Origin: Candidatus Latescibacterota bacterium
GTDB lineage: Bacteria; JAAXHH01
DNA: 64,000 nucleotides
Assembly: GCA_022822725.1 (NCBI GenBank)
Contig: JAJEAN010000007.1
Location: 1,933,045 to 1,997,044 of the forward strand
Reading direction: 5' to 3'
Part shown: positions 8,819-27,250 of the stretch, piece after piece
Numbering within the stretch: position 1 is the first letter of the stretch
Layout of the letters: each line of letters opens with the position of its first letter
Translations under genes and position numbers: made by a program
The notes under the pieces: model-generated
Told to the model about the DNA's origin: nothing
Databases searched by the model: none
Seen by the model: only the letters and a program-made list of their open reading frames with translations

Positions 8819-11800
8819 AATCCTGATTGGTAAACTTCAATGTACGGCTGTTCTCTGTGACCGTGCGGACGACATGGTCCGGCGTACCATCAGGAACCTC
8901 CGCTGATATCTCGAGGGTAACCGTTACTTTGGCTCCTACCAAACTGGAAAGATGAGCTATCACCTCTTCTGCAATCTGGCTTGCGTCCCTTCCCACACGT
9001 GCTGAATCAAGGGCAACCGTCCCATGGAAACGCTTAGGTTGCGTTGTTGGAGGCGTCACGGGCGGGACTTCACCATTACCCGATTCCCCACCATTGTTGG
9101 TGCCGTCTCCATTAGACTCCCCACCCGAATCTCCACCGTTGCCGGCCGGTTGTTTCGTCTCGGCATTGAGCTGTTGACGGGCGATACCAGGCTTGACGAG
9201 CAACCCCGAAGCTTCTTCATCCAATAGTGAAACGGCTAGCCCGACACGCAGTCCGCGAAAACGCTTAGTGTCTTCGTCAAAACTGTCTGCGTATGCAAAC
9301 GCATCCTGTTCCCAGGTGAGTAAGGCAATTCCGTCGGCGATTGCATTTAGAAGCACCCTTGAGTCCCTGATTCTAGGGAGATAGGGGTATTTTGCAAAGT
9401 CCTCGAGGATCTGTCTGATCGACACGTGGTCGCCGCGCCAGAGCGGTACGCGATCGAGTTCCATCCTTAGACGCGAGGAGGCCAAGCTGTTAATCAACAA
9501 CTCATCGCCCCTTAGCTTTTTTCCAGCTCGCACTGCTAATGAATCCTGACCCGACAATCGCATGGCCTGCCACTCGATTGGGGTATCGGTGCGATCCTGA
9601 ACCGGTACCAGGAGCCACTGGTACGTCTCTGGGAGACGGGCGGAAATCGCACTGGATGCCGCTTCCTTTTGCGTCTCAGCCTGCTTGACCTGGTAAAGTG
9701 AAAGGTCTAGTTGTTCGCGCTCTGCCAGAATCGATTTCCATGCCAGGTACTGCCTGACCGCTTCATCAAGATCCTGCAGTCTCGTGGAGTCTGCAGCCAG
9801 AAATACGAGTGAATTTCGATATATCCGTGGTGTGCTGCCTCTCGACTCCAAAATGGCATTCGCAGCTGTTTCCGCGGGATTTCCTTGTTCTTTGCTGTAG
9901 GCTCTGTCCACGCCTAGTACAACTAATCGAGCGTCACGGTCATCAGGGATATCTTGACTGGACTGCGGGAGGGGATGAATGCGACTGAAGTCGCCCGCAT
10001 TTCGGAGATCGGATCTAAGTCGCAAACCAAGTTCTTCGGTAACCCTGTCGGGATGCCGCTTCAACTGTTCGGCACGATCCTCCGCAAGTTTAGACACGGT
10101 TGGTTGTGTTGAATACCAGTAGCGGGGACCGTCCTGGTAGAGATATGTCGCCGCACCCGACAGTCGCCTGAGCGCATCGCCGAACACCGCTGGCGACTCC
10201 CCGGGCATAACACAGCCGAGTTTGACGCGACGGTCCTCGAGACCGCGATGCGCTGCATCTGCAGTGGGTGCAGATCCGAGATAGATTGTACGGGCAACCC
10301 GTCTGGAAGCGCTGAATTTCCCGAGGTTGAGGACCTGACCGTCCAATTGGAATGGCAACGATTCGGGACCGTCTACGTCCTTCTCGATCACTGGTACCCA
10401 GTTATCAGCGAGATATCTGGTCAGTTCAAATTGTACGCGCCTCTCGTCAATCGCGATATTCGCCGGCAATATCAGAGGATTTCGGTCACCTTTCTCCCAT
10501 AGACTGTGTATTACGGCTGCCATGAGTCGCAACACACCACGGGTGCGTTGGAACTTCACCAACGTGGACCAGTCCGTGTAAAGGCGGTCGAATATCTCAG
10601 GATGTATCGGATAAGCCGCCTTGATTCGCTTTTCATAGTCCGCATCCCGACATTCGAGGGGAAACTCCTGGTGTTGTGTCCGATAAAGATCTGCAAACGC
10701 GCGGGCAATAACATCACGATCCTTGAACTGCACGGGTTCCGTGAAAGGCTCAAATAGCCGACGGCGCACAATCTCAAAGCTTTCCTCGGCACTTGCTGGC
10801 CGCCAGGACGACGCGATACGCCCCACGACGTTCTGCAACCGAACGAGTGCCTCACGACCACGTTGACCGCCGACCTCGGTATCATCGGCCTGGGTGTGGG
10901 GTGATCCTGTCGTATCCGACGCCGGCAAGCTAATCACCAACAAACAGTTATCAGCAAGTTTGACAGATTCCGTAAGTGCCTGTGCAAATGTGAACTGTGT
11001 CTCGAAACCTCCAGCGGGGAGGTCGCTTTCACTATGCAACTGCCGTGCGTAGGCAACCCACTCATCAATCAGTATCAGGCACGGGCCATATTCGTTGAAG
11101 AGATTCCGAAGTACGTCGCCGGGATTTGTAGCGTTTCTGTCGTCGGCCGCAACCTGATCGAAGGCCTTCTTCCCTCCCAACTGCCATGCCAATTCACCCC
11201 AAAGTGTACGAATGACCGTACCATCTGGTTTGGTGACCGGATTCCCTGGTGAAATCTTGTTTCCAACCAGCACTACTCGCCGTGCCGTTACGAGTTCGTT
11301 TGTGTCCGTCTCTTGCAAAACAGTACCGATTTCGTCCAGTTCCTTTGAAATTGACCCTGAGAAAAGGTGATATAACGCCAACATCGAGTGGGTCTTACCA
11401 CCTCCGAAGTTGGTCTGGAGATTGACGACCGGATCGCCTCCGTTGCCTGAGAGGCGCTGAATTGCCCCGGCAAGCAAGCCTTTCAAACTTTCTGTAAGGA
11501 ATGTGCGTCTAAAGAACTCGACCGGATCGCGGTATTCATCTGTGCCCTCGCCCAAGTGCACTTGCCACAGGTCAGCCGCAAATTCTGCCTGTTGATATTG
11601 CCCGCTTGCGACATCCTCGTGGGGTGTGACGACTTCCCGCCACGGCTTCAAACCGGCTACCGTTGCACTTTCGATTGCCAGACTTGTCTGCTTGCGGCGT
11701 TCTCCGCGCGCTTGTTCGTCGAATCGTACACGAAGCAGTTCCATCTTGAACTTCTCTAGCTCGACCGTTTGCGGCGCCGATACGGCCGTTAGTAGCCGAT

Positions 11801-12146
11801 CGGTCGAATCCAATACACGGTAAGCGTCATCGCTGGAAAAAGGCCGTTGGTGCGCCCATTGATTCCGTTGATCACGTAGCTCGCTCACCAGACTGCGCTC
11901 AGTCCGGCCAAGTGTTTGACGAAAAACGACGTTCCAGGATTCCCACATCAGTTTGAGAAGTGCCGCAACGTCCCACTCGTGGATCGAATCGCTATCTCGC
12001 AGATGATCATCACTGAGATAGTTCTTGGCTTCGGCATACCATTGTGCGCCGTGCGAGTTCTCAAATTCACGCTTTACAAAAGGGGCCAATCCCTTTTGAA
12101 GCAACCCAAGTGCGTTGCCGACGCGTTCCTGGTTGGTGATTGCCAT
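8805..12146 (-). CDS. DUF499 ATPase with N-terminal Swt1/HEPN-like region
   Basis: Walker A NFGGGKTHSMLALYHLF, Walker B CLILIDEWVAYARQL, N-terminal RDQRNQWAHQ (R-x4-H). Confidence 0.85.
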   Translation of the reverse strand: MAITNQERVGNALGLLQKGLAPFVKREFENSHGAQWYAEAKNYLSDDHLRDSDSIHEWDVAALLKLMWESWNVVFRQTLGRTERSLVSELRDQRNQWAHQRPFSSDDAYRVLDSTDRLLTAVSAPQTVELEKFKMELLRVRFDEQARGERRKQTSLAIESATVAGLKPWREVVTPHEDVASGQYQQAEFAADLWQVHLGEGTDEYRDPVEFFRRTFLTESLKGLLAGAIQRLSGNGGDPVVNLQTNFGGGKTHSMLALYHLFSGSISKELDEIGTVLQETDTNELVTARRVVLVGNKISPGNPVTKPDGTVIRTLWGELAWQLGGKKAFDQVAADDRNATNPGDVLRNLFNEYGPCLILIDEWVAYARQLHSESDLPAGGFETQFTFAQALTESVKLADNCLLVISLPASDTTGSPHTQADDTEVGGQRGREALVRLQNVVGRIASSWRPASAEESFEIVRRRLFEPFTEPVQFKDRDVIARAFADLYRTQHQEFPLECRDADYEKRIKAAYPIHPEIFDRLYTDWSTLVKFQRTRGVLRLMAAVIHSLWEKGDRNPLILPANIAIDERRVQFELTRYLADNWVPVIEKDVDGPESLPFQLDGQVLNLGKFSASRRVARTIYLGSAPTADAAHRGLEDRRVKLGCVMPGESPAVFGDALRRLSGAATYLYQDGPRYWYSTQPTVSKLAEDRAEQLKRHPDRVTEELGLRLRSDLRNAGDFSRIHPLPQSSQDIPDDRDARLVVLGVDRAYSKEQGNPAETAANAILESRGSTPRIYRNSLVFLAADSTRLQDLDEAVRQYLAWKSILAEREQLDLSLYQVKQAETQKEAASSAISARLPETYQWLLVPVQDRTDTPIEWQAMRLSGQDSLAVRAGKKLRGDELLINSLASSRLRMELDRVPLWRGDHVSIRQILEDFAKYPYLPRIRDSRVLLNAIADGIALLTWEQDAFAYADSFDEDTKRFRGLRVGLAVSLLDEEASGLLVKPGIARQQLNAETKQPAGNGGDSGGESNGDGTNNGGESGNGEVPPVTPPTTQPKRFHGTVALDSARVGRDASQIAEEVIAHLSSLVGAKVTVTLEISAEVPDGTPDHVVRTVTENSRTLKFTNQDFEME

Positions 12147-12304
12147 AGTTTACCTCTTAGTCTCGATACTCAGTATATATCGCATTTACTTTACGCTCGG
12201 TCTTGGCCGATAAATCTAACCACCGCATGCAGTTCGTGCACCAATACTTTGTTGATTTCAGTCGCTTGATATTCGAATCCCAATGAAACCCTTACTTTCA
12301 CCCA

Positions 12305-15208
12305 TCAGATATCTACGTCATCAAATAGACTTTCTTGCTCGCCAGGTTCTTTCTGTCTCGAAAGGCGGGTAATCTCGGGCCAACTCTGTACTAAACTGTT
12401 GTAGGAAAGTGCTTCGGCGGCTCGGCCTCTGCGCTCGCAGACGTTAAAGAGATGGTAGGCCAGTTCGCGAGCGACATCCGCCCAGGCACCGAGACGGGCC
12501 ACTAGCTGAGCCGCTCCCTCCTCACCACTAGTTTCGTGTGCTCGAATCATGCGGTGAACTGCCTCCCACACGGAGATCCTGTTGTCAGTTGCTGGGTCCC
12601 AATCGTCGACCAACTCCTCTGGGCGCAACAACCTCACTTTGCCCGCCCTTGAGTCTAGGATGCCACCTTCAACTATTCCGTCGATGCTGGTATTCTTGGC
12701 CTTGGATAGGGTCTCAGCAACTCCGTATTCACCTTCGCCAAAACCGTGCTGCTCGAACCACGCCAGTGCCCAGCGGCTGTCGGCATCGAAATCACCCTCC
12801 TGCTCTGCCAGTACTTCGTCAAGCACTTGATTGATTAGTGCCAGGGCTTCACGCACCGAGACTGGCTGTCCCTTGGCGTCGAGCACCTTGGCGTAGTAGG
12901 TGTATACTGCCATACCAGGTCCGATAGCAGCTTGGGCAAGATCTACCGGTGCGATATTTCCAGATTGCAGGCTGTCGAGAGCGGCGGGCAATCTGGCCCT
13001 TAACGCGTTAATAAACTCGCGCCGGGTAGCCAGTGGTGCGTCATCAGGGGATTTGCGACAGACGAGTACAATGCTAGAGGCGAGGGCGTTGGTGCCAGCA
13101 CTGATCATGCGATTTCCGAGTTCTGTCCGCATGGGCCAAGTGCCAGAAATACTTAGGCCAGCGCGGATAACCGCATCGAGAAAGGTCTCCCATCCAGTAC
13201 TAGAAGTACCCGCGCCTTCTTTAGTCTCGGACTGTTTGAATGCATAGTAGATCGTGACTGAGAAACTCGGATGCGCCTGTACGGCGAGACGGTGCATCGC
13301 TTTGGTCATTCCGTCGAGAAAAAACGCCTCCGCTCTTACCTTACTTCCATGCCTGTAGGGTGTAGCAACCAATTCTTCGGCCTTTGGCACGACGAGAGTG
13401 GCAAAGAGGTCGGGGAAGACCTTACGGAGAGAGTGTCGCAACCATACGTAAAAGAAGTCGGAGAGGTCAGCGTAGCCAATGTTGTCGTAGTAAGGGGGGT
13501 CTGTTGAAACAATTCTGTTGATACTAAGGTTTTGTGATGTGGCATCTGCTTGGTTAGCTAAACCTAGTGACTGCGCTGGCATCTTCTGGACTGACTTCCA
13601 AATCCAGTCAACCATAGCCATGAAATTACCAGTGGAATCACAAAACGGATTTCCTTCTACGTAGTCCCAAACCATTGGGATAGCTTGACGCCCAAAGGTG
13701 TTACGTACTAACTCCTTCGAATTGTGCCAACTACAAATTGATGACCAGTAGTCACTACACTTGTCTACAGCAAAGCTTAAATAGACGGCAATAGCTTCGG
13801 CGTACGCTGTCGCCCCAATACCACCATCGCGCAAAGCCTGCTTGTCCTCAGTCAGATTGACCGACGCGTCCTGCTTGATGCGTTCCACCGTTTCGGCCAC
13901 CAAGTCCGCAAATGTGGTAAGGGCGACAAGCTGGCGGCGAGTGAAGAGGTCGCACCACATTGTCATACCGTACTCTTGCACTCGGAAGCCTAGTGCTCGC
14001 TCCGGTAATCTCGTGTCAGGTCGCCACTTAGGTTCTGATTGTTTGGCAATTGCTTCATGCTCTGGCGTTGGCGTCAAATAAACTCGTCCACGATCTCCTT
14101 CGACTACTATAGCCATCAAACGCGCACCCATCCGCCCAGATTTTGCCTCTGTACGCAAAAACTCAAACGGCATGGGTGTATCCGACATTAGACAGAGAAA
14201 GGGGCTACCACTACCTCCAGACTTGGTACCCACCTTTGTCGCTTCCACATCCGGTGGCTCTCCCTCCTTTACGGTAAACCTATAGCCCCCTCCCGCAATC
14301 ACTGGCTCGACGTATGCCTTCTTTCCTTTCTTCGTAGAGAGCATGAAAGTAGTGACTAGCGGTACATCGACATCGGCAAACGCCGGGTTCGGGCTCTTTA
14401 CTGTCCTAGCCCAAAGCCACGCGATCACTGTCAATTTGCGACCTTTGTAGCGTTCAAGATCAGAACGTTCCCGTACCATCTCCTCTGTAACTTCAACTTG
14501 TGGATACAGGTTTCCGATGCGCTTCTCGGCTTCGTCGCGCATCCACTGGCCATAGTAGTGTATGTCCTCGGCCAATCCCTTCGCGCTGGTCCAGTTGTGT
14601 CCGATAAGCTTCCGCTTCTCGGCCAATCCACCAGGTCGAGCTTCTGGGTTCACCGGTGGTCTTCCAGCAAACTTCGGCGGGATCTCGATCATAGCCTTGT
14701 TGATGAGCACAGCTACCGGATTGAGGTCGCTTCCATGTGCTTCGAGGCCCAGCCTTTGTGCTTCGAGCGGCAGCGCACCACCACCAGCAAAGGGATCGTG
14801 GAAGGCAGGGAGCTTGTAGCGATCGAATAGCACTTCAGCGTGCGGATGATCGGCATTCTCGGCGCAAGCTCTCCGCCAACTCCGCCATATCTCGTCACGA
14901 GCCTGTTGCAGTATTTCCTCGTTGTTGGTGTTCTTCCATTCTACTAATGCTTCAATGATGCTAAAGAGCCTCCGACGCTCCTTTTCTTGCGCTTTCTTAG
15001 TGGGAAATAGGTCTGGCCAACTTGAAGGATCGTCGACCATTTGCGCGAAAATCACGGCCCGTGCTGCAGCCAACGGCCGCCGTGCCCACCACAGATGTAA
15101 CGTGGCCGGATGCCCGTGACGGATAGACTTCTCTCGTGCCGAGGCTGTGTTGATAGCGTCGAGGGGGAGGGCTACCTCGATGAGCTTCTTTCTATGCGTG
15201 GTGGTCAT
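12305..15208 (-). CDS. DUF1156 domain DNA methyltransferase
   Basis: N-terminus LIEVALPLDAINTASAREKSIRHGHPATLHLWWARRPLAAARAVIFAQ; SAM motif DPFAGGGALPLEAQRLG; catalytic DPPYYDNIGYADLSDFFYVWLR. Confidence 0.92.
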   Translation of the reverse strand: MTTTHRKKLIEVALPLDAINTASAREKSIRHGHPATLHLWWARRPLAAARAVIFAQMVDDPSSWPDLFPTKKAQEKERRRLFSIIEALVEWKNTNNEEILQQARDEIWRSWRRACAENADHPHAEVLFDRYKLPAFHDPFAGGGALPLEAQRLGLEAHGSDLNPVAVLINKAMIEIPPKFAGRPPVNPEARPGGLAEKRKLIGHNWTSAKGLAEDIHYYGQWMRDEAEKRIGNLYPQVEVTEEMVRERSDLERYKGRKLTVIAWLWARTVKSPNPAFADVDVPLVTTFMLSTKKGKKAYVEPVIAGGGYRFTVKEGEPPDVEATKVGTKSGGSGSPFLCLMSDTPMPFEFLRTEAKSGRMGARLMAIVVEGDRGRVYLTPTPEHEAIAKQSEPKWRPDTRLPERALGFRVQEYGMTMWCDLFTRRQLVALTTFADLVAETVERIKQDASVNLTEDKQALRDGGIGATAYAEAIAVYLSFAVDKCSDYWSSICSWHNSKELVRNTFGRQAIPMVWDYVEGNPFCDSTGNFMAMVDWIWKSVQKMPAQSLGLANQADATSQNLSINRIVSTDPPYYDNIGYADLSDFFYVWLRHSLRKVFPDLFATLVVPKAEELVATPYRHGSKVRAEAFFLDGMTKAMHRLAVQAHPSFSVTIYYAFKQSETKEGAGTSSTGWETFLDAVIRAGLSISGTWPMRTELGNRMISAGTNALASSIVLVCRKSPDDAPLATRREFINALRARLPAALDSLQSGNIAPVDLAQAAIGPGMAVYTYYAKVLDAKGQPVSVREALALINQVLDEVLAEQEGDFDADSRWALAWFEQHGFGEGEYGVAETLSKAKNTSIDGIVEGGILDSRAGKVRLLRPEELVDDWDPATDNRISVWEAVHRMIRAHETSGEEGAAQLVARLGAWADVARELAYHLFNVCERRGRAAEALSYNSLVQSWPEITRLSRQKEPGEQESLFDDVDI

Positions 15209-18200
15209 GACTATATACCAATCTATAAGTTGCTGGGAAAAGGGTGACTTCCCTCTGATCTCGCATGGTACGAAGCTGGGCCCCGGTTATTTCGATCGGA
15301 TAATCCTTAACGTCTGTCAGTATGAGCGCGTATGTTTCAGGATTCTGTTCGATTAGGTTCCAGATTTCTGCTTCGAGTTGCAGAGGCTCTCTTTCCAAGC
15401 AGTGGTCTTTAGGCAAGTAGTACCGCACGAGACTACCGTTCGCGGTCCGATACTCCCATGGAATGCTCATACCATTCGTCCGGCCAATCCAACTACCATT
15501 TTCGTGAACGAAGCGCTGTGCATGCTCCTTCTTAAAGTGAAGTGCTTTTGCAAATCGTTCAATAATAGTTGGCTTTGAAGATTTCTTAGGAACTCGGTTG
15601 TTCGGTTTCGTCGCGTTGATCACGTCGGCCGTCGTCGAATTGTCGCCAACGTTTTGTCCTGTTTCCTCGTGACCAACTCCGGTTCCAAGCAAGTCACCGT
15701 TCATGCTCTCTTCTAATGTCTCGTCAACGGATTCGCCTAGTCTTGCCAACTCTGTTGTTTCGAGATTCCCCAATTTGCCTTCCTTGTTCTCCGCATTTTG
15801 CTTCGTAGGGTTGGTTACAACCGACTGGTTGAAGTTTTCATTGAGATACTCGCGCACGTTTTGCACCGATCGTTCGTAGCTGTAGTCGAGTGCAGCTTGG
15901 ATATCAGGTCGCCCGAAGACTCTTCCAATCTCTGCCGGCACGCGGCGTGCAAGCTTCCCGTGTGACAAAGACTCAACATATAGCGTCTGTCCAAACCAGA
16001 CTACTTCAGCCCGGCGGCCTGTTCCTGCTGGTTTACCGTCTATATAGGGGGTGACTTCAAGCCCTGTCGTTTCAAACCAACGTGTTTGTTCGAGAGAAGC
16101 AGCGAGAGTACGAACTCGGTCCGTCTCTTCCTCAGTCTCGAGCACAACATGAAATAATTCAGCGCCAAGGGTATTGATCCATTCCTTGTCAACTGGATCG
16201 CTGATGGAAAAAAGGCTCTCTTGGATACGTTCCTCGATTTGTGCGGCCAACGGCGTCAGCCGAGCAAATGGAGCACTACTCGTGACTTCACCTTGCAAGC
16301 GCTGCAGGTCAGCGGTTTGTTGTTTGACCCAGGAAAACAGATGTCCCCAAGGAACTAGGAACTGCATGGTGAGCCCATACAATAGTCTATCCACGGGAAC
16401 CCACTCACCTTCGAGATTAAGCCAGTGCTTGCACTCCTCCCAGATTCGCGTTGGATGCCGTTTTAACAACTCACGAACCCGACGTCCGTCTTCTTGTGAA
16501 AGCACTTCTCCGGAAGGCAGTCCCATTAGCCATTTAATGGCCTGTTCTGCAGTCGGACGCTCGGCAATGCCTATCTTGCGCCAGATTGAAAGGTCGCGTA
16601 CCCCTGAACGAATGACCGCAGCGCCGGGTACAGTTTCCTCATCTGAAGAAAGATAAACCCCCGCAATCGACGCCCAATCGTCATCTTGGGTCAGAATCAG
16701 TTTTTCAATCTGAAATGTATTGATGATTTCTTGAACCTCGTCGCTTGAGCAGGTATTCATCATCTTGTCCAGGCGACCGTACCACTTCTCCACCTCATGG
16801 ACTGGAGGTCTGTCAGCTTTCGCCAATGCGCGCAGGCGGTCAAGGAGACGATCCGGACTAGTCGGCTTACATTGTACACCGAGGAGATCGAGCAAGGAGC
16901 GTGTAGTTTCAAGATCTACACTTCCGTGAACGAAGGGCTCGACGTTTAAAAGTGATTCCGTCTCGGGTGTCCTTCGAAGAAGATCTCCCGGTTTACGTGG
17001 GAAACCCCGATCATCGAGAAGACATGGCAATTCTCGCATGCTGAGTATCCATGTAGGCACGAGGGGCTCATTTGAAATCCGCGCTTCTCTTCCGGTGGTG
17101 GCGATTTGATATAGTTCCGCGGTTTTCTCGTGGTTCCAATATACCTCCCCCTCCGCGAACACCCGATCGATGACCTTGACCCATACAAATTCATCCTCTG
17201 TAGCTAGATTCTTCCAGTAATTCCAGTAGGTTTTATCGAAGTCCCAATCTTCAACAAAAAAACTGTTGGTAACGTATCTGTAATTCAGATCGTCTTTTAA
17301 CCCGCGTATCGTTGCGTCTTGCTCAATGCGCTGTTTTCCGTAGACACTGATCCTTCGGGGGATCAATGGGACAAAGGTTTGAAGGCCGGCACGGCCCGAA
17401 TTCACCCACTTAAACCACTCGTCCTGAGTACAAGAACTGAATTCTGTGGTGTATTCAGGATGAAGTAAGTGTGTTTCCCTTTGTTGTTCTGGCAACAACT
17501 CTTCTACCCGGCCATCTCGGTCAAAAAGTATGTCGTTTTTTAAGGGTCTAAGTTTATTGTCTCGAGTGAAATAGCAGAACGCATCACCGACATCCGCTTC
17601 TAGTTTCGCTCCGATTTGCGCAAGCCTAGTACATCGTTGCATGCAAACATCACTTTGAGCGAAGAAGCCAGCAGAAACTTTTCTGAACACCGCGTTTACA
17701 TCACTGGTTTTGTCTAACTCAATCTGAGCCAGAACAGCATAGGCATCCGCTACCCCCTTTTGCATGGTGGAGTCTTGCTGCTCATCAAATGTTCTTCTTT
17801 GCTTTGCGAGAAAACGAGGCCAATTCTGATTCAAGACGATCAGATGGCTTGCCAGGAAATCCCAGTCTTCCTTTGACCGAAGGAGCTTCTCCTCGCCAAG
17901 ACGAACGATACCTCTTGCATCATAGAGTTCGTCCTTACCTTGAACAGGAACGATTCTAATATCGTTGATAGGTGGATAGTATTGGTTATTGGTGCTTGTA
18001 TAACGGTATCCTGTGTATTCTGGGGCAATGTATATCCATAGATTCAGCAGTTGACGCCAAGTCTTTGGCCTCGGAATCTGTTTCCACCGAAGGATATCGA
18101 GGAAATCCTGCTTACATATTTCATCGACTAAGCCCCAATTCGTCAGCTTTCTGCCATCAGCGGGTGTAATGTGCTGATTCAAGGCAGGGCGGGCATCCTC

Positions 18201-19421
18201 GTCCAGAAGTGCGACCGCTTGGTCCGGCTCCCAGACATCGAGTATGGGTCGTGGGATGATTATGCTTTGTTTCTTAAGAACTAATTGGCCCTTTTCAGTC
18301 AGAAGTACTGCTTGTCCCCTTATCACTGCTTCGAACGCTTCCTCCGTGATCGTTCCACTCACGCCTTCTATCGAGTTATTTTCCCGATCGAGGTCCGGGA
18401 ACAGCGCGTACGCCCGCGCACGTGCGGAAACAGGAGCTTCCGACTGGCTTAGCCATTTAAGAAAGGCGTTTGCAGCCAACTCACCTGCGCGTTTGAGTAG
18501 CCACCGGTTGGTCGGTGAAGTCTCTGGATCTTTGATTTTGAGGCGTGCGGGATCCTGAATAAACGGTGCGTTGCACGCGAAGGGCAGATCGGTCAACACA
18601 CCAGTCGGCAGCACAACGTACAACCGTCCTTCTATCCCCAAAACAATCTCGATGCTGCAAGGTGGAAACTCGGACTCCTCTTCAGTCGTGAGCATGCGCT
18701 CATTCCTGATTTCTGTCAGTGCTTCCTCCGGAAACGGAGCGGCCTCGGACCGAATTAGCAAGTACGGCTCATCATCGTTTTTGTGGTGAACTACCCATTC
18801 GCTTTGCGGAATCGGCCCTGGCCCTTGTCTGTCCCATTGAACCACGCAGTCGTCGATTTGCATACTGCGTATGTTCCTGAAAAACAGAAGGGATACAGGG
18901 CTTTTTAGCCATTCTTGAAGACTCTTTTCGACTTCCTGCTGCCTGTGCATATCACATATCGGCACTCGAATACGTGTTCGACCGTGAGTTTCACAGTATT
19001 CGTGAAGCCAGTGTGGCTCAGTAAAACGATTACGTTGAAAGCAAACACTAAGTGAAGGAGTGAAAAGATCTACACGATCTCCGAGACTGAACGTACTCTT
19101 GAAACCGACACCTCGAAAGCCGATGGTATGAAGAGATCTTTTGTTCGAATAGCCGAACCGACATAATGATTTAAAGTGTTCTTCTATGAAATCTTGTCCG
19201 TTATGCTCGAAAAAAAACATCCGATTCTCTACTCGCACTGACACCTCGGTTGCACCCGCGTCGTCCGCGTTCTGGAGTAGTTCCGATAGAACATTCCTGG
19301 GACTTTGTACTTGTTTAAATAACTGGTGCCACGGACCCGCCAGATCGGGATCTTGCTCCAACTGATCCCAACGCTGACTGGCACTGTCACGTATTTCGTT
19401 GAAAAAAACAGGAGGGTTCAA
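15192..19421 (-). CDS. Sacsin-like GHKL ATPase, 1409 aa
   Basis: ELLQNADDAGATEVSV and GFRGVGFKSTFSLGDRVDLF, characteristic of sacsin N-terminal ATP-binding domains; overlaps DUF1156 start by 17 bp. Confidence 0.85.
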   Translation of the reverse strand: MNPPVFFNEIRDSASQRWDQLEQDPDLAGPWHQLFKQVQSPRNVLSELLQNADDAGATEVSVRVENRMFFFEHNGQDFIEEHFKSLCRFGYSNKRSLHTIGFRGVGFKSTFSLGDRVDLFTPSLSVCFQRNRFTEPHWLHEYCETHGRTRIRVPICDMHRQQEVEKSLQEWLKSPVSLLFFRNIRSMQIDDCVVQWDRQGPGPIPQSEWVVHHKNDDEPYLLIRSEAAPFPEEALTEIRNERMLTTEEESEFPPCSIEIVLGIEGRLYVVLPTGVLTDLPFACNAPFIQDPARLKIKDPETSPTNRWLLKRAGELAANAFLKWLSQSEAPVSARARAYALFPDLDRENNSIEGVSGTITEEAFEAVIRGQAVLLTEKGQLVLKKQSIIIPRPILDVWEPDQAVALLDEDARPALNQHITPADGRKLTNWGLVDEICKQDFLDILRWKQIPRPKTWRQLLNLWIYIAPEYTGYRYTSTNNQYYPPINDIRIVPVQGKDELYDARGIVRLGEEKLLRSKEDWDFLASHLIVLNQNWPRFLAKQRRTFDEQQDSTMQKGVADAYAVLAQIELDKTSDVNAVFRKVSAGFFAQSDVCMQRCTRLAQIGAKLEADVGDAFCYFTRDNKLRPLKNDILFDRDGRVEELLPEQQRETHLLHPEYTTEFSSCTQDEWFKWVNSGRAGLQTFVPLIPRRISVYGKQRIEQDATIRGLKDDLNYRYVTNSFFVEDWDFDKTYWNYWKNLATEDEFVWVKVIDRVFAEGEVYWNHEKTAELYQIATTGREARISNEPLVPTWILSMRELPCLLDDRGFPRKPGDLLRRTPETESLLNVEPFVHGSVDLETTRSLLDLLGVQCKPTSPDRLLDRLRALAKADRPPVHEVEKWYGRLDKMMNTCSSDEVQEIINTFQIEKLILTQDDDWASIAGVYLSSDEETVPGAAVIRSGVRDLSIWRKIGIAERPTAEQAIKWLMGLPSGEVLSQEDGRRVRELLKRHPTRIWEECKHWLNLEGEWVPVDRLLYGLTMQFLVPWGHLFSWVKQQTADLQRLQGEVTSSAPFARLTPLAAQIEERIQESLFSISDPVDKEWINTLGAELFHVVLETEEETDRVRTLAASLEQTRWFETTGLEVTPYIDGKPAGTGRRAEVVWFGQTLYVESLSHGKLARRVPAEIGRVFGRPDIQAALDYSYERSVQNVREYLNENFNQSVVTNPTKQNAENKEGKLGNLETTELARLGESVDETLEESMNGDLLGTGVGHEETGQNVGDNSTTADVINATKPNNRVPKKSSKPTIIERFAKALHFKKEHAQRFVHENGSWIGRTNGMSIPWEYRTANGSLVRYYLPKDHCLEREPLQLEAEIWNLIEQNPETYALILTDVKDYPIEITGAQLRTMRDQREVTLFPATYRLVYSHDHHA

Positions 19422-22400
19422 TTTGCGGGCTCTCCACGCGCGAGCAATTCTCCAAAATGATAGTTGACGCTTGTCACTCCGAAATCCGGTTCTCGTTTAA
19501 AGGGCTCACGTACGTAATGAACCTCATGGGCACCACTTTCCTTGAACTCCACGATAGCGAGAATGTAGTCGTCCGGTTTATTGAGCGAACAAAGGATTTC
19601 GTTACGCGTCACTGTAATCGTTGATGCGCCGCTGACACGACCCTTCACTTCTATAAATCGAAGCTTGCCGCTTTCCGGCACGATACTTTCGATGTCGTAT
19701 CCCAGCTTCTCGAGTTCACGATCCGTTGGTTTAAATCCAAGACTCCGCTCGACCTCCATGATGATTTTACGTGCCCGTGCAGCAGATTCCTGGGTATCGA
19801 CGGCTGTGTTTGTGCCCTTTGAAATACTTCCGCCCATCTCATCAATGAGACCCTTTGGCACAACCAGCAATCCTCCCAGCACAACAGGAGGTAGCGGGGA
19901 GATCTGGGCTTCGAGTTTGAGTTCCTCCAGACGTTTCTTTAGGCGCGCTTGCAGTAGATCTGCCCGTTTGCGGGCCTCACCCGAATTAAGATGGGCGGCG
20001 GTCTTGCCCGCTTGCTCCTGTAGTTTGAGCTGTTCGGCTCGATGATCCCAGTAGGTAATCTCTTTTGTGAGACGGTCCTTTACTGCGGCTTCCGTTTTTG
20101 AGATAAGGGTAAGCTTCGAGTCTCGAATCTCATTCAAATGCTCAGGGACCACCTTAGCAACTGCGTAGTCTTGCACCTTCTTTTCCAATTCCCGGTCTAT
20201 CCATGCGCACTCAGGCCGGTCCAGTACAGATTCCAATCCGGGGTCGTCTTCGGTGAGCGGCCGGAAATCGAGATAAGGCGCGTGATGGAGGGGCCGCGCC
20301 ACGCCTTCAGCATCGAGTTCGACGTAGAGCATGCGTTTGGAGACGACCCTTCGGCCTCCTGAGCGCGTTTGACTCGCATCCTGGATCGCATGCTCGAGAT
20401 AGAAGAGTACACGGGGCTTATTGCCCGAATCACGGTCGTCGACTAATACCGTACCGCGTTTCAGAAGATCACGATTGCGTTCCAACGTCAGGTCGATCAC
20501 CGCATCGAGTAAAGGGTGCCCCGGACATATAAAGGCTGCTAGTGGCTGGCCCTGGGGTGCGACCAGTGACTTCTCAAAAACAATGCGCTCATAGCGAGGA
20601 AGAACCGGTTCTCTGATGCCAATCAGTCGGTCCCGGTTTCGTACAGGTGCAGGAACGTAGGTGATCTCAAATCGACGAGTCTCTCGCTGTCTGGTTGATC
20701 CGCCCAGTCGTTTAAACGACTCGTGAAAGAACGATTCGACGTAATGAGGTTGCAGACGACGTGCTTCTGCCCGTTCCATCTCTTCGCGTATACGGTGAAC
20801 GCGGCTCGCATCCATTGCGTCGTGCACAAGGGCGCGCTCTTCCAGTAGGTCCTGAAGCCGGCCACGGTCAAGGGCATGATCGACCGCTGTAGTCAGGCGG
20901 GCTCGGACCTCTGGTTGCTCGCCGTACCGTATCGCTTCTACCAATAGATCGCGAAGAGGCCGTCCCTCGAACTGGAGTTTGCCAAGCACGTCGAACACTT
21001 GTCCGCCGAGGGCCTGACGCGCTTGCTCCAGCTTCTCGAGGAGTTTTCTATAGACGTCGCCCTCGCGCGTTTCTTCCGCTACCAGATTCCAGAGATGACA
21101 AACTTCGGTCTGGCCGATGCGATGAATCCGACCGAAGCGCTGCTCCAGTCGGTTGGGGTTCCAAGGTAGATCATAGTTTACCATCAGATGCGCGCGTTGC
21201 AGGTTAATGCCTTCACCTGCCGCATCCGTGGCAAGAAGCACTTGTACATCGGGATCGTGCCGGAAAGCTTCCTGGACTTTGAGTCGGTCCTCCCGTCCCA
21301 CACCCCCATGGATAAGAACGACGGATTCCTCGCGTCCGAGCAATGTTGTGATTCGACTGTGTAGATAGCGCAGCGTATCGCGATGTTCGGTAAAAACAAC
21401 CAGCTTTTGACTCGAAGACGAGATTGGTTGAGGAATCTCCCCGGACCCGTACGGCACGTCCGGTTCGGCGATTCGTCCAGCGAGTCCGCCCTCCGTGAAA
21501 ACCTCACCGAGAAGGTTTGCAAGCTCCCGCCATTTGGTGTCGGTACCGCTCTGCTGTACACTCAGTGCAAGTCTTTCCAGATTCTTTAACGTCTTGATCT
21601 CGGCCTTCAGTTCGTCAATTGAACGCGCTGCTGTCGCACGATCGAGAACTTCCTCCTCGGCCGCTTCGACTTCATCGTCGGGTGCCTCGTCGAGGTCCTC
21701 AACGTCTTCAGTGTCAAGTTCAGGTCCGGCTACTTCAAATACGAAGTTGGCCTCGCTACTACGCTGCAGTATTTCCAACTCCCGCAAACGACTTTCCAGT
21801 CGTTCACGACGACGACGTAAAGACTGGTGAATTGCCTCTGGTGAAGATGCCAAACGACGTTGTAATATCGTCAAAGCGAACCCGACCGTGCCGGCTCGTT
21901 TGTCGTTGTTGAGCGCCTCAGCACGGTTGAACTCCTCCCGCACGTACTCGGTTACAGCTCGGTACAAATGAGCTTCAGCCACCGAGAGTTTGTAGGGGAC
22001 AGTGTACGCGACACGCTCAGGGAATAGTGGTGTTCCGTCGAACTTGAGTAGATTCTCCTTCACCATGCGTCGCATCAGGTCAGATACATCGGCGACATGC
22101 ACGCCATCGCGAAAGCGTCCTTCAAAACGGTCGCCATCGATGAGTGCCATAAAGAGTTGAAAGTCTTCTTCTTTCCCGTTGTGCGGTGTGGCTGTCATCA
22201 ACAGAAAATGTCGGGTGAGGCGTGATAATAGTTGCCCTAATTGGTACCGCTTGGTGTACTTGATCTCTCGGCCGTAGAACGAGGCCGACATCTTGTGCGC
22301 CTCGTCGCAAACGACCAGGTCCCATCGGCAGTCCGGCGCTTGCAGCTTCTGCTGGACGTCCTCGTTGCGCGAGAGTTTATCCAACCGCGCTATGACGAGG

Positions 22401-22996
22401 TTGGCTTCGATGAACCAGTTGCCCGAACGTGCCGCTTCAAGTTTATCGTTTGTCAGGATTTCGAAGGGTAGATGGAACCGGCGATAGAGCTCATCTTGCC
22501 ATTGCTCTGCCAGACTGCCAGGGCACACGACAAGACACCGTTGAATGTCGCCGCGGGCGATCAACTCCTTAATAAGAAGCCCTGCCATGATGGTCTTGCC
22601 GGCGCCTGGATCATCGGCGAGCAAGAAACGAAGCGGTTGCCTCGGCAACATGGACTCGTAGACCGCAGTAATCTGATGTGGCAGCGGCTCGACAACCGAG
22701 GTATGTACGGCGAGAACCGGATCAAACAGGTGGGCAAGACGGATGCGGTGAGCCTCTGAGACCAGGCGGAACAGAGCACCGTCGCCATCGAAGCTCCAAG
22801 GCCGACCAACTTCTACGACCTCGAGTCGTTGTTCGTCGTCACGGTACAGTAACTCGTTGGCGACCTCACCAGTCGGCGTCTTGTAGGTCAACTCGAGCGC
22901 TTCAGTGCCAAACCATTGCACACTGACAACTGTGACGAGACTTTCGGGCAATACGCCACGTATAGTGGTGTTGGCCTGGAGGTCTTCCAGTGTCAT
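19418..22996 (-). CDS. SNF2-family helicase with C-terminal DUF3883-like domain (DrmD-like)
   Basis: LADDPGAGKTIMAGLLIKEL, DEAHKMSA, TATPHNGKEEDF, RFGRIHRIGQ; C-terminal ELEKLGYDIESIVPESGKLRFIEVKGRVSGASTITVTRNE. Confidence 0.9.
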   Translation of the reverse strand: MTLEDLQANTTIRGVLPESLVTVVSVQWFGTEALELTYKTPTGEVANELLYRDDEQRLEVVEVGRPWSFDGDGALFRLVSEAHRIRLAHLFDPVLAVHTSVVEPLPHQITAVYESMLPRQPLRFLLADDPGAGKTIMAGLLIKELIARGDIQRCLVVCPGSLAEQWQDELYRRFHLPFEILTNDKLEAARSGNWFIEANLVIARLDKLSRNEDVQQKLQAPDCRWDLVVCDEAHKMSASFYGREIKYTKRYQLGQLLSRLTRHFLLMTATPHNGKEEDFQLFMALIDGDRFEGRFRDGVHVADVSDLMRRMVKENLLKFDGTPLFPERVAYTVPYKLSVAEAHLYRAVTEYVREEFNRAEALNNDKRAGTVGFALTILQRRLASSPEAIHQSLRRRRERLESRLRELEILQRSSEANFVFEVAGPELDTEDVEDLDEAPDDEVEAAEEEVLDRATAARSIDELKAEIKTLKNLERLALSVQQSGTDTKWRELANLLGEVFTEGGLAGRIAEPDVPYGSGEIPQPISSSSQKLVVFTEHRDTLRYLHSRITTLLGREESVVLIHGGVGREDRLKVQEAFRHDPDVQVLLATDAAGEGINLQRAHLMVNYDLPWNPNRLEQRFGRIHRIGQTEVCHLWNLVAEETREGDVYRKLLEKLEQARQALGGQVFDVLGKLQFEGRPLRDLLVEAIRYGEQPEVRARLTTAVDHALDRGRLQDLLEERALVHDAMDASRVHRIREEMERAEARRLQPHYVESFFHESFKRLGGSTRQRETRRFEITYVPAPVRNRDRLIGIREPVLPRYERIVFEKSLVAPQGQPLAAFICPGHPLLDAVIDLTLERNRDLLKRGTVLVDDRDSGNKPRVLFYLEHAIQDASQTRSGGRRVVSKRMLYVELDAEGVARPLHHAPYLDFRPLTEDDPGLESVLDRPECAWIDRELEKKVQDYAVAKVVPEHLNEIRDSKLTLISKTEAAVKDRLTKEITYWDHRAEQLKLQEQAGKTAAHLNSGEARKRADLLQARLKKRLEELKLEAQISPLPPVVLGGLLVVPKGLIDEMGGSISKGTNTAVDTQESAARARKIIMEVERSLGFKPTDRELEKLGYDIESIVPESGKLRFIEVKGRVSGASTITVTRNEILCSLNKPDDYILAIVEFKESGAHEVHYVREPFKREPDFGVTSVNYHFGELLARGEPAN

Positions 22997-23159
22997 GTTC
23001 GGCTTTCATTCTTCTGATTTAATACGAGAACCCGATGTGTCCTGTAAATATCCAACTATCAGAGACCCTTTGCTTTCATTGGTCTCCAACTGTACTGCAC
23101 CCTTGAACGGGACACAGAGTTAAGCTTCCTTCCGAACGAGGAAGCACCTCTTGTCCTAG

Positions 23160-23310
23160 TATCGCCGTCATTTCACCCACGAGTTCAAACTCCAGGTTCT
23201 CCAGAAAGCAGATGCGGGTAAGACGATCAGTCAGTTAGCCCGTGAGCATCATGTCCATCTCACGCTGATCAACAAGCGGCAGCAGCTTCGACGGCAGGAT
23301 GATCGCGCCG
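23160..23310 (+). pseudogene. IS3-family transposase OrfA remnant (HTH part)
   Basis: Manual translation of frame 23160: YRRHFTHEFKLQVLQKADAGKTISQLAREHHVHLTLINKRQQLRRQDD..., IS3/IS911-type OrfA pattern; no start codon, stop immediately upstream. Confidence 0.75.
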
Positions 23311-23394: not shown

Positions 23395-24471
23395 TTAGGC
23401 TTCTTCTTGTTCATCGGGATATGGAAGGGGCGTGGCTGCTATCCAACCTTCTCGTTCGGGTGAGTTTATACCTGTACTTATGCCTCCGCCTTCTGTTGAA
23501 ACAACTTTCGCTCCTCGGTGTATACAGGCTCGAACAACCGCTTTCCTTGGATGATCCTCGTCTTCCTTGGACGCACTAATTATCGCAGTGCATTTTTCAG
23601 TTCCTTCTTCAGGTTTCGCTGAAAGTCGTTCACCCAGCAATCTGTCAAGTATTTCCGTTGATACATTGCGTCGTGATCCATGGTGCGGGACTTGAAACCG
23701 ATCTATACCCGGTAGGGTCAGTCCTACTGATGGAGCATAGTCCAGAGCCTCGTTAAGCGAACCTCGTCCCGCATCCGCAGTCAGTAACACCTTTTTCTCA
23801 CACAAATTAGCATACTGTATCACACTCATCTCATTCTCAGAGCTAGTTTCCTCCGATGAAAATGTCTCTTCACCCCATGCGGACCTCATAAAAGACACAA
23901 AACTCTTAACCAAAGCACGTCCTTGTCCTAACAATGACAGAGCTGCTGCTTCTGGAGTTTTATCGGACTCAACAACAAGATTTAGGTATCTTTCTTTTGA
24001 GGGTGCGAGGACAGTGAACTCACCAATATTTACTCCCTGAAAGGGTTCCAATATAGGTATCTCCTGGGCCTCGGCGATCTCTTCAAGTTCTGCAATATTC
24101 GGGTATATCTCCTTAAGTCTACGAACCAAGTTCTCCACGTTTGAAAAACGAGCAAATCGATCAATTAACTCATCTGCATATAGCCATGGTCGTAACATCC
24201 ACAACTCTGAAACACTAAATGCTTCGAGAACCTTACGCAGTCCGCCCGTATGATCGCCATCGGAATGACTGGCAATTACAGCATCAATAGTGTTAGGGTC
24301 ATCATAATACTTCTTGATGTGCTGAATAACAATGTCACCAGAATCTTGAAAACCGCCATCGGTGACATGGACTCTATTGATACCACCTATGGAATAACGA
24401 AGTGTTATTGCATCCCCGCTTTTGCTCGACCCTACGTCGAGGAAATCAATCTCGAAAAAGTCGTCAGACAT
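23395..24471 (-). CDS. ComEC/Rec2-like MBL-fold hydrolase
   Basis: IASHSDGDHTGGLRKVL, VLLTADAGRGSL, QVPHHGSRRNVSTEIL. Confidence 0.85.
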   Translation of the reverse strand: MSDDFFEIDFLDVGSSKSGDAITLRYSIGGINRVHVTDGGFQDSGDIVIQHIKKYYDDPNTIDAVIASHSDGDHTGGLRKVLEAFSVSELWMLRPWLYADELIDRFARFSNVENLVRRLKEIYPNIAELEEIAEAQEIPILEPFQGVNIGEFTVLAPSKERYLNLVVESDKTPEAAALSLLGQGRALVKSFVSFMRSAWGEETFSSEETSSENEMSVIQYANLCEKKVLLTADAGRGSLNEALDYAPSVGLTLPGIDRFQVPHHGSRRNVSTEILDRLLGERLSAKPEEGTEKCTAIISASKEDEDHPRKAVVRACIHRGAKVVSTEGGGISTGINSPEREGWIAATPLPYPDEQEEA

Positions 24472-24480
24472 ATGCTTCTC

Positions 24481-24984
24481 TTACTCCTTACTTTTAGCGT
24501 TTATTACGCGCTGAACGACATATTGAGTTTGTTTTCTGTAAGAGAGCAAAAACACTAACAACAATACCGCCAATATAATGAAACCGTTTGCGTCATCACC
24601 AATTGGCCATAAATGCTTCAACTCGTCAAAGATTTTAAGGAATACCAACGCAATTAACAGCGAACTTAGTGTACGATACATGTTGTTCTGTTCAGACATG
24701 ATCTCAAGCTTTGAATCCACTTCTGCTGCTTCCACGTAATCCTTGTAGTCTGCGAATCGAATAAAACTTGTCTTTTTGAGTAAGGGTTCCAGAAGTAACG
24801 ATCCAATCCTGCTAATGATCAATCCTGTTGCATAATACAGAAACATCCCTATGATCCAGTCCTCATGGATTAACGAAAATGAGGTGATTAGTTCTCCCAG
24901 GCCAGCGAATAGGACTCCGGGAAGTAAATAGTTAAAAATGTTATATGACGATAGCTTTTCGATGACGGTTTTCAACGGGATCAT
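24481..24984 (-). CDS. Small multi-TM membrane protein
   Basis: SSYNIFNYLLPGVLFAGLGELI, WIIGMFLYYATGLIISRIG, LSSLLIALVFLKIFD, FIILAVLLLVFLLSY hydrophobic segments; 9 bp upstream of MBL gene. Confidence 0.65.
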   Translation of the reverse strand: MIPLKTVIEKLSSYNIFNYLLPGVLFAGLGELITSFSLIHEDWIIGMFLYYATGLIISRIGSLLLEPLLKKTSFIRFADYKDYVEAAEVDSKLEIMSEQNNMYRTLSSLLIALVFLKIFDELKHLWPIGDDANGFIILAVLLLVFLLSYRKQTQYVVQRVINAKSKE

Positions 24985-26551: not shown

Positions 26552-27250
26552 TCACCTAACACGTTGCAATACCTTCGCTACCTCCTCTGCATTTTCTACT
26601 TTTTGCATAGACCACAAAGGATTAATACCACGCTGGCACATCGTATCCCAGTTCAAGTGAATCAACGCTAATCCAAGACAATGGAGAATCTGGACATCAC
26701 GGTGTGACAAGATCCAATTCTCAATAAGCTTCCCTTTCCGTCGCATCAGAAAATACCGTAAATCTGTGTATGCTGTCTTGTGTTCTTTGAGGCACTTTAA
26801 TAACTGATCATCGGTAATACTATCGATGCCCTCCGCTATTCCTAACTCGTTCATTTTATAAATGACTTTTTTCTTTAAATCAACACCACTTGGTTCTTTG
26901 AGGCAAACATCATTGTAAAGGGCATGTGGACTATGGTTTGAGTTGTCTCGAATCGCTCCAAAGTGAAGAAGCAATAAGAGTCGTAGTGACTGCTCTACCG
27001 AAAACAAGATCAATTCAAATGATACTGCAGAAAAGAAAATCGAATCGATATTCGGAGGGTTAGCACCGGGTTTGTGTAGGCACCAATTGGAAGCACGTTG
27101 GTGTGCTTGTGCCGTAGCCATCAGCCGGGGAGCAACGGCCTTGATTTCCTCTTTTGTACACCTGTCCTGAGCCTCATTATCACGAAACATTATCGGTACC
27201 ATCTGAAGTGTTTGGTGTACGGATTTTCCATTGAACAGTCCGTGGGGCAT
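26552..27250 (-). CDS. Alpha-helical hypothetical protein (HEPN-like?)
   Basis: FSAVSFELILFSVEQSLRLLLLLHFG helix resembles HEPN-type helices; family not recognised. Confidence 0.4.
   Translation of the reverse strand: MPHGLFNGKSVHQTLQMVPIMFRDNEAQDRCTKEEIKAVAPRLMATAQAHQRASNWCLHKPGANPPNIDSIFFSAVSFELILFSVEQSLRLLLLLHFGAIRDNSNHSPHALYNDVCLKEPSGVDLKKKVIYKMNELGIAEGIDSITDDQLLKCLKEHKTAYTDLRYFLMRRKGKLIENWILSHRDVQILHCLGLALIHLNWDTMCQRGINPLWSMQKVENAEEVAKVLQRVR

Follow-up and report, generated by a model that had tools for sequence, protein, structure and literature searches.

The window, a 64,000-nucleotide stretch of contig JAJEAN010000007.1 from a Candidatus Latescibacterota bacterium, carries on its minus strand a gene cluster transcribed in the order 232-aa protein, MBL2, TM and MBL1, followed by an Hma system and a GmrSD_N protein (Table 1). 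The membrane protein gene TM, whose sequence reads SSYNIFNYLLPG, and the gene for the MBL-fold hydrolase MBL1 are the two minus-strand open reading frames singled out in the initial annotation; their coordinates hold, and the sequence likewise bears out the short gap reported between them, with 9 bp separating the TM stop (end at 24481) from the MBL1 start (24471). A Shine-Dalgarno-like AAGGAG within the last TM codons probably couples the translation of the two genes, and, given this signal and the 9-bp gap, MBL1 is probably the direct partner of TM in the window. Describing the two genes as a unit was apt insofar as the pair is conserved, but it overlooked a second M48B-type hydrolase, MBL2, which belongs to or flanks the unit: a gap of 213 bp separates it from the downstream TM gene, which is thus flanked by two MBLs. 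MBL2 is possibly a second input, or the leftover of another pair. Promoter and terminator scans returned fewer sites than expected by chance. The helical pattern of the 232-aa protein appears HEPN-like by eye; the protein is at most a candidate member of the module. The Hma system directly downstream was absent from the initial annotation.

Table 1. Coordinates of the features of the locus (window positions) and of example membrane proteins of families 2 and 3 (positions within the named loci)
Feature	Coordinates	Strand	Basis
Membrane protein TM (PDC-M48A family), 167 aa, ATG start	24481-24984	minus	PADLOC PDLC04670
MBL1, MBL-fold hydrolase, PDC-M48B subfamily c1, 358 aa, ATG start	23395-24471	minus	PDLC04676
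MBL2, second MBL-fold hydrolase, PDC-M48B subfamily c0, 302 aa	25198-26106	minus	PDLC04673
Shine-Dalgarno-like AAGGAG for MBL1, within last TM codons	24484-24489	minus	Direct sequence reading
232-aa protein, no known family, in low-GC insert	26552-27250	minus	No Pfam, PADLOC or NCBIfam match
Inserted low-GC block, about 4.4 kb, between xth and HmaA	22997-27384		GC profile, sister-genome comparison
HmaA (context, outside module)	19418-22996	minus	
Sacsin/TmtA-like protein (context, outside module)	15192-19421	minus	
HmaB (context, outside module)	12305-15208	minus	
HmaC with HEPN_Swt1 domain (context, outside module)	8805-12146	minus	
GmrSD_N protein (context, outside module)	6782-8818	minus	
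Whole adjacent defence block	6782-22996	minus	
Family 2 (A7) membrane proteins, examples	L116 7063-7776; L119 7101-7856; L136 6748-7503; others		
Family 3 (A8) membrane proteins, examples	L111 5355-5966; L115 7017-7715; L131 7100-7852; L010 11192-11794		

TM matches the M48A model PDLC04670 over positions 2-163 of 164 (E 5.2e-59). Its AF2 model (pLDDT 93, pTM 0.84) predicts four long helices (residues 16-33, 43-71, 92-125 and 130-165) together with a short N-terminal helix (4-13) and a further short one (80-89), and the residues Y14, G23, G54, R59, N101, R104 and K151 are invariant among 61 relatives. A fold search of the PDB returned zero matches at E<=0.001 and a profile search of PDB sequences found none, leaving TM with neither a recognisable ligand-binding domain nor a solved structural relative in these searches; among the ComEC membrane domains of Pfam, the Competence domain included, it has no relative. 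An assignment to 8xMP was rejected, the Pfam match (E 0.0025) falling below the cut-off and the PDB sequence and fold searches giving no confirmation, and TM is therefore not placed in a named pore family. In RefSeq, M48A proteins are called either 'hypothetical' or 'phosphohistidine phosphatase'; the latter label (e.g., L015 2715-3209 and E. coli H49, H64 and H71) looks like a mis-annotation.

The two hydrolases belong to distinct M48B subfamilies, with MBL1 matching PDLC04676 (E 2.8e-164, 544 bits) and MBL2 matching PDLC04673 (E 2.5e-135). The HSDGDH and PHHGS motifs noted initially are present in MBL1, HSDGDH at residues 69-74 and PHHG at 262-265, and MBL2 displays HPDEDH and PHHG. MBL1 carries the complete ComEC-type metal-ligand set (HxDxDH, Asp, PHH and a C-terminal His), with H69, D71, D73, H74, D233, H263, H264 and H307, as well as P308, invariant in 22 relatives; judged from these residues, its metal site is intact. 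In a fold search with the MBL1 AF2 model (pLDDT 88, pTM 0.89), the top PDB match is the ComEC MBL domain (9ic4, E 2.3e-15), followed by phosphorylcholine esterase and then by RNase J/CPSF73-type nucleases. These nearest folds thus span a DNA-processing domain, a phosphorylcholine esterase and RNases. RefSeq labels the MBL partner 'ComEC/Rec2 family competence protein'. The prospect that the hydrolase might group only with housekeeping ComEC-type enzymes is contradicted by its 544 bits against the PDC-M48B model versus 32 bits against ComEC_Rec2 (cut-off 190); its score against Avs1a is 39.7 bits (cut-off 420), and the window MBLs score 20 bits (P0001) and 32 bits (P0003) against the 6A-MBL enzyme NF058524 (cut-off 220).

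M48A is present as a single copy in the window genome and absent from 11/11 congeneric genomes. At the corresponding site, the stretch from xth to the conserved gene flanking it is free of defence genes in G001, G002 and G010 and contains just a GmrSD gene in G005; G008 has an Hma system there, with about 176 bp separating xth from HmaA and no M48. The GC content of the block is near 0.42 (0.47 at the HmaA end), that of Hma near 0.53 and that of the host 0.62-0.66. In the tree, TM nests among Poribacteria sequences (support 98), and G054, the bearer of one such sequence, shares only the domain rank with the window genome. Given these sister-genome gaps, the GC contrast and the nesting of TM, the 4.4-kb block was most likely gained horizontally and independently of Hma. 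The region beside xth (exodeoxyribonuclease III; window 5523-27384) can be described as a chromosomal defence hotspot, whose contents range from none through GmrSD or Hma to the Hma plus M48 of the window. Within Hma itself, the gene between HmaA and HmaB varies as cargo: it encodes a sacsin/TmtA-like ATPase in the window and, by eye, a 505-aa ABC/OLD-like ATPase in G008 (L156 5019-6533). Between HmaA and MBL1, what looks by eye like an IS3-type transposase OrfA remnant, at about 23150-23310 on the plus strand (QLAREHHVHLTLINKRQQLRRQDD), may mark the insertion.

A profile search with TM recovered 60 genomic and 16 viral loci, spanning Poribacteria, Nitrospirota, Bacteroidota, Pseudomonadota, Bacillota, Spirochaetota, Planctomycetota, Verrucomicrobiota and others. 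When all TM loci were pooled and redundancy removed (n=72), an MBL was found within 600 bp in 61, lying downstream and co-directional in 39, convergent in 11 and upstream and co-directional in 11. The 11 loci lacking a close MBL comprise six 6A-MBL operons, in which the MBL is 1.1-2.4 kb away, three loci truncated where their contig stops, and two chromosomal TM genes of Poribacteria that are orphans, with no MBL nearby (L020 and L021). The pair is thus conserved well beyond the window, and the co-occurrence of the two families near defence genes that the initial annotation had proposed to look for was found, with Hma adjoining in the present case. As defence islands gather unrelated genes and the window holds such an island, MBL and TM could in principle be independent genes, of housekeeping or defence-island type, that have become neighbours by chance; this reading, to which we assign next to no probability, is refuted by the co-occurrence counts, with 61/72 pairings across many phyla set against a background of 2 MBLs per 352 kb (at >3.5 kb from a TM gene). 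The match of both proteins to dedicated family models, together with this wide conservation, likewise argues against chance.

The pair also travels. Convergent TM/MBL pairs are found in P2-like coliphages, on a 5.5-kb Citrobacter plasmid and in the P2-like prophages of 44/5426 E. coli genomes, where they sit between the portal and replication genes, at the position where P2 itself carries its old/tin cargo. In these phages, prophages and small plasmids, the linkage thus holds without co-transcription. Many further copies are borne on plasmids, some of them conjugative, and TM-MBL is, as a two-gene unit, both widespread and horizontally mobile. A small hydrophobic protein next to an enzyme, the two forming a compact unit that plasmids and prophages carry, recalls a toxin-antitoxin system, with a toxic TM restrained by the MBL either directly or via destruction of an activator until infection tips the balance; we consider this quite improbable in the face of the 11 convergent loci, the separate placement of the two genes in the 6A operons and the two chromosomal orphan TM genes, though these last are possibly inactive. 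The many plasmid copies also suit a stress or plasmid-conflict module that rides mobile elements with no antiviral role, and a related ubiquitin-like group, Bub, has no demonstrated phage protection (PMC13373217). Against this, the placement in prophages and at an Hma island, and the naming of 6A-MBL as anti-phage by NCBI, make such a non-antiviral module quite improbable.

Some loci depart from a simple pair. Two or three different MBL genes follow a single M48A in L017 (8508-12343), L026 (1288-3304), L016 and L063, arrays that resemble the two MBLs around one TM of the window. In L069, L072 and L074, an HNDxDH-type MBL lies upstream of M48A across a gap of 400-540 bp, which in L069 and L072 contains a 160-175-aa ORF; the protein encoded there in L069 matched nothing in PADLOC.

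The MBLs adjoining TM genes fall into five subfamilies. Placed on the TM tree, their labels require 14 changes, as compared to a mean of 30 when shuffled and a minimum of 4, from which it follows that TM and MBL partners are co-inherited yet also swapped. Subfamily c0, the MBL2 type, directly partners TM in L036, L029, L063 and others. In the c2 MBLs, SWDxDH replaces HxDxDH with loss of the first metal-binding His (L015, L047, L064, L068 and L070), and two c0 members (L022 and L035) have N(Y/F)DEDH, with Asn at the first metal-binding position; judging by these motifs, the metal site and its chemistry may differ among the subfamilies.

The exchange extends to the membrane component. Loci of MBL1 relatives without M48A encode instead a membrane protein of family 2 (238-260 aa among the members that defined it, with 3-4 helices and the signature 'DxY..ARLxPA...YGFRRNL') or of family 3 (about 200-250 aa, 'PGHRAFSE...DxRID...FRD'). 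Neither has a Pfam match above the cut-off or a significant PADLOC match; one family 3 member shows a weak Csx27 match (E 0.005). Grouping M48A, family 2 and family 3 as one family was rejected, as they are unrelated in hhalign profile comparison. One of the three TM families occurs within 700 bp in 43/46 non-redundant M48B-type MBLs, the partner being M48A in 24, family 2 in 13 and family 3 in 6, as compared to at least three hydrophobic segments in 37/411 similarly sized genes farther away. Because the family 2 and 3 profiles were derived from loci retrieved by their M48B MBLs, we performed an independent re-search from family 2 alone. This yielded 11 viral loci, most already known and one new (L211), with an MBL directly upstream in 10/10 of those with upstream sequence. 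Among 274 genomes sampled from one gammaproteobacterial class, family 2 was detected in a single one (L205), where it is split in two pieces and no MBL was detected in the 3-kb locus.

These partner exchanges bear upon the main rival to an effector role for TM, namely a membrane-tethered nuclease in which the MBL, anchored to the inner membrane by TM, would cut incoming phage or plasmid DNA, as a split defensive ComEC effecting superinfection exclusion. The ComEC MBL domain is the top structural match of MBL1, its full ComEC-like ligand set includes H307-P308, and the pair occupies the P2 Q/A cargo site, all of which speak for such a nuclease. Nevertheless, it is unlikely on our assessment: TM is unrelated to the ComEC membrane domains of Pfam, a single docking interface is harder to reconcile with many-to-many exchange among five MBL subfamilies and three unrelated TM families, and the link to E2-E1-JAB operons would need a separate reason.

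That link is with the 6A-MBL systems (NCBIfam NF058523/NF058524), which correspond to row 6a of Iyer et al. 2006, where mainly the two-gene 6A form was described (PMC1779556). M48A is the third gene after the 6A MBL and E2-E1-JAB in L027, L041, L044, L045 and L049, and the order in L042 is 6A MBL, E2-E1-JAB, M48B and M48A. In L022 and L025, a WYL/CapW-like protein (by eye, no model) lies between the 6A operon and a divergent M48A, and annotated WYL regulators adjoin the 6A operons of L190 and L193. Among 28 E2-E1-JAB loci retrieved independently of TM, 17 by hand count have one of the three TM families alongside, several of the non-matching ones being truncated or distant E1 relatives. L034 (2553-9572) combines the 6A MBL, E2-E1-JAB, a 462-aa unknown protein and an M48A-M48B pair, with a family 3 protein upstream; on gene content, several partner layers are present in this one locus. 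The genome of the window itself has no NF058523 (E2-E1-JAB) match above the cut-off (best 38.7 bits versus 320), ruling out a 6A operon there. As the same M48A and families 2 and 3 fill the partner slot of both the free MBLs and the 6A-MBL operons, gene order suggests that an MBL plus a membrane effector might constitute the core module, with the conjugation gene optional, by analogy to CBASS types I and II.

In enzyme-effector immune systems, unrelated membrane proteins take turns beside one constant enzyme, and different enzymes beside one membrane protein. It is the same pattern here, with unrelated membrane proteins swapped on a constant enzyme and vice versa, that leads us to read TM-MBL as a mobile two-component anti-phage module of enzyme and effector, at a probability of about 0.5. 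This remains the best available reading, in keeping with the enzyme plus membrane effector pairing proposed initially; the pore and the nuclease or nucleotide-hydrolase activity suggested there are putative. An antiviral function as such is very probable, and we infer it from the defence context, which includes the Hma system, the P2 Q/A cargo site and the WYL-domain regulators beside several 6A/TM loci. In the proposed mechanism, the soluble ComEC-type MBL would be the enzyme or sensor arm that, upon infection, hydrolyses a phosphodiester-type substrate (a nucleic acid or nucleotide) and thereby makes or releases a trigger. The four-helix TM would be the effector arm, which, once triggered, would assemble in the inner membrane and permeabilise or stall the cell, resulting in abortive infection. 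The signal direction, pore formation and the substrate are conjectural parts of this scheme. In the 6A-MBL operons, E2-E1-JAB presumably primes the MBL by conjugation, and the window pair would be a short version dispensing with it. Type II CBASS has Cap2/Cap3 to prime its CD-NTases, and the optional E2-E1-JAB may be regarded as a parallel to this arrangement. Counting against the enzyme-effector reading are the orphan TM genes (L020 and L021), the lack of a ligand-binding domain in TM and the metal-site changes of the c2 and c0 MBLs; moreover, a role as membrane anchors would suit the swappable TM proteins equally well.

More broadly, and with somewhat less confidence than an even chance, we propose that PDC-M48, as the short form, and 6A-MBL, as the long form, belong to a single unrecognised immune class: CBASS-like, with an MBL in the role of the CD-NTase, at least three interchangeable and unrelated families of membrane effectors, and optional priming by ubiquitin-like conjugation. 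Within such a class, the window locus would represent a multi-input variant, in which two MBL subfamilies surround one effector. Both the joining of PDC-M48 to 6A-MBL and the two further membrane families appear to be new within the literature searched, in which, key papers possibly lying outside it, the membrane partners of 6A systems are nowhere described. The proposal furnishes a testable rule, whereby an MBL with a swappable membrane protein is the core unit of both the free two-gene systems and the 6A ubiquitin-like operons. If true, it would identify the means by which 6A-MBL operons take effect, give names to two new effector families and set an MBL hydrolase in the position that nucleotide cyclases hold in CBASS. 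For a direct test, pairs that occur naturally in P2-like prophages of E. coli are at hand.

Comparison with known systems places the locus as follows. MBL1 shares its fold and metal-ligand pattern with the MBL domain of ComEC/Rec2; however, it is a free-standing soluble protein of 358 aa with no fused Competence domain. Models for AVAST type 1 Avs1a and for LmuA-labelled and DRT-associated MBLs represent related enzymes of other defence systems; scores against them are weak, as given above for Avs1a, and no partner of the STAND NTPase, reverse transcriptase or SMC kind was seen in the insert. The likeness to CBASS is one of logic only, with a core enzyme, an exchangeable membrane effector and optional E2/E1 and JAB components. 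In contrast to CBASS, the MBL occupies the place of the enzyme, no CD-NTase was found among the proteins scanned in the insert and in the Hma block, and a nucleotide signal would be an analogy only. The 6A-MBL systems also have an MBL-fold core enzyme, often with M48A or a family 2 or 3 protein as the next gene, whereas the window lacks E2-E1-JAB and its MBLs fall far under the cut-off of the 6A-MBL enzyme. No PADLOC model named after the published 'Hydrolase-3TM' was matched, and PADLOC may hold no such model. The closest counterpart is PDC-M48 (M48A plus M48B), a candidate in PADLOC-DB 2.0.0, whose PDCs come from a guilt-by-embedding screen and mostly lack experimental tests (PMC12988326); our literature searches returned no experimental paper on the pair or any member, a broad one yielding only papers on beta-lactamase resistance. 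The pair, which the initial annotation did not recognise as a named system, is uncharacterised, but PADLOC does list it as this candidate. With the same two-gene make-up and full-length matches in the window, the locus is, by these model matches, a member of the catalogued, uncharacterised anti-phage candidate PDC-M48, from whose simple form it differs in having two M48B MBLs of different subfamilies around one M48A, while the M48B relatives elsewhere also use two further TM families without a PADLOC model.
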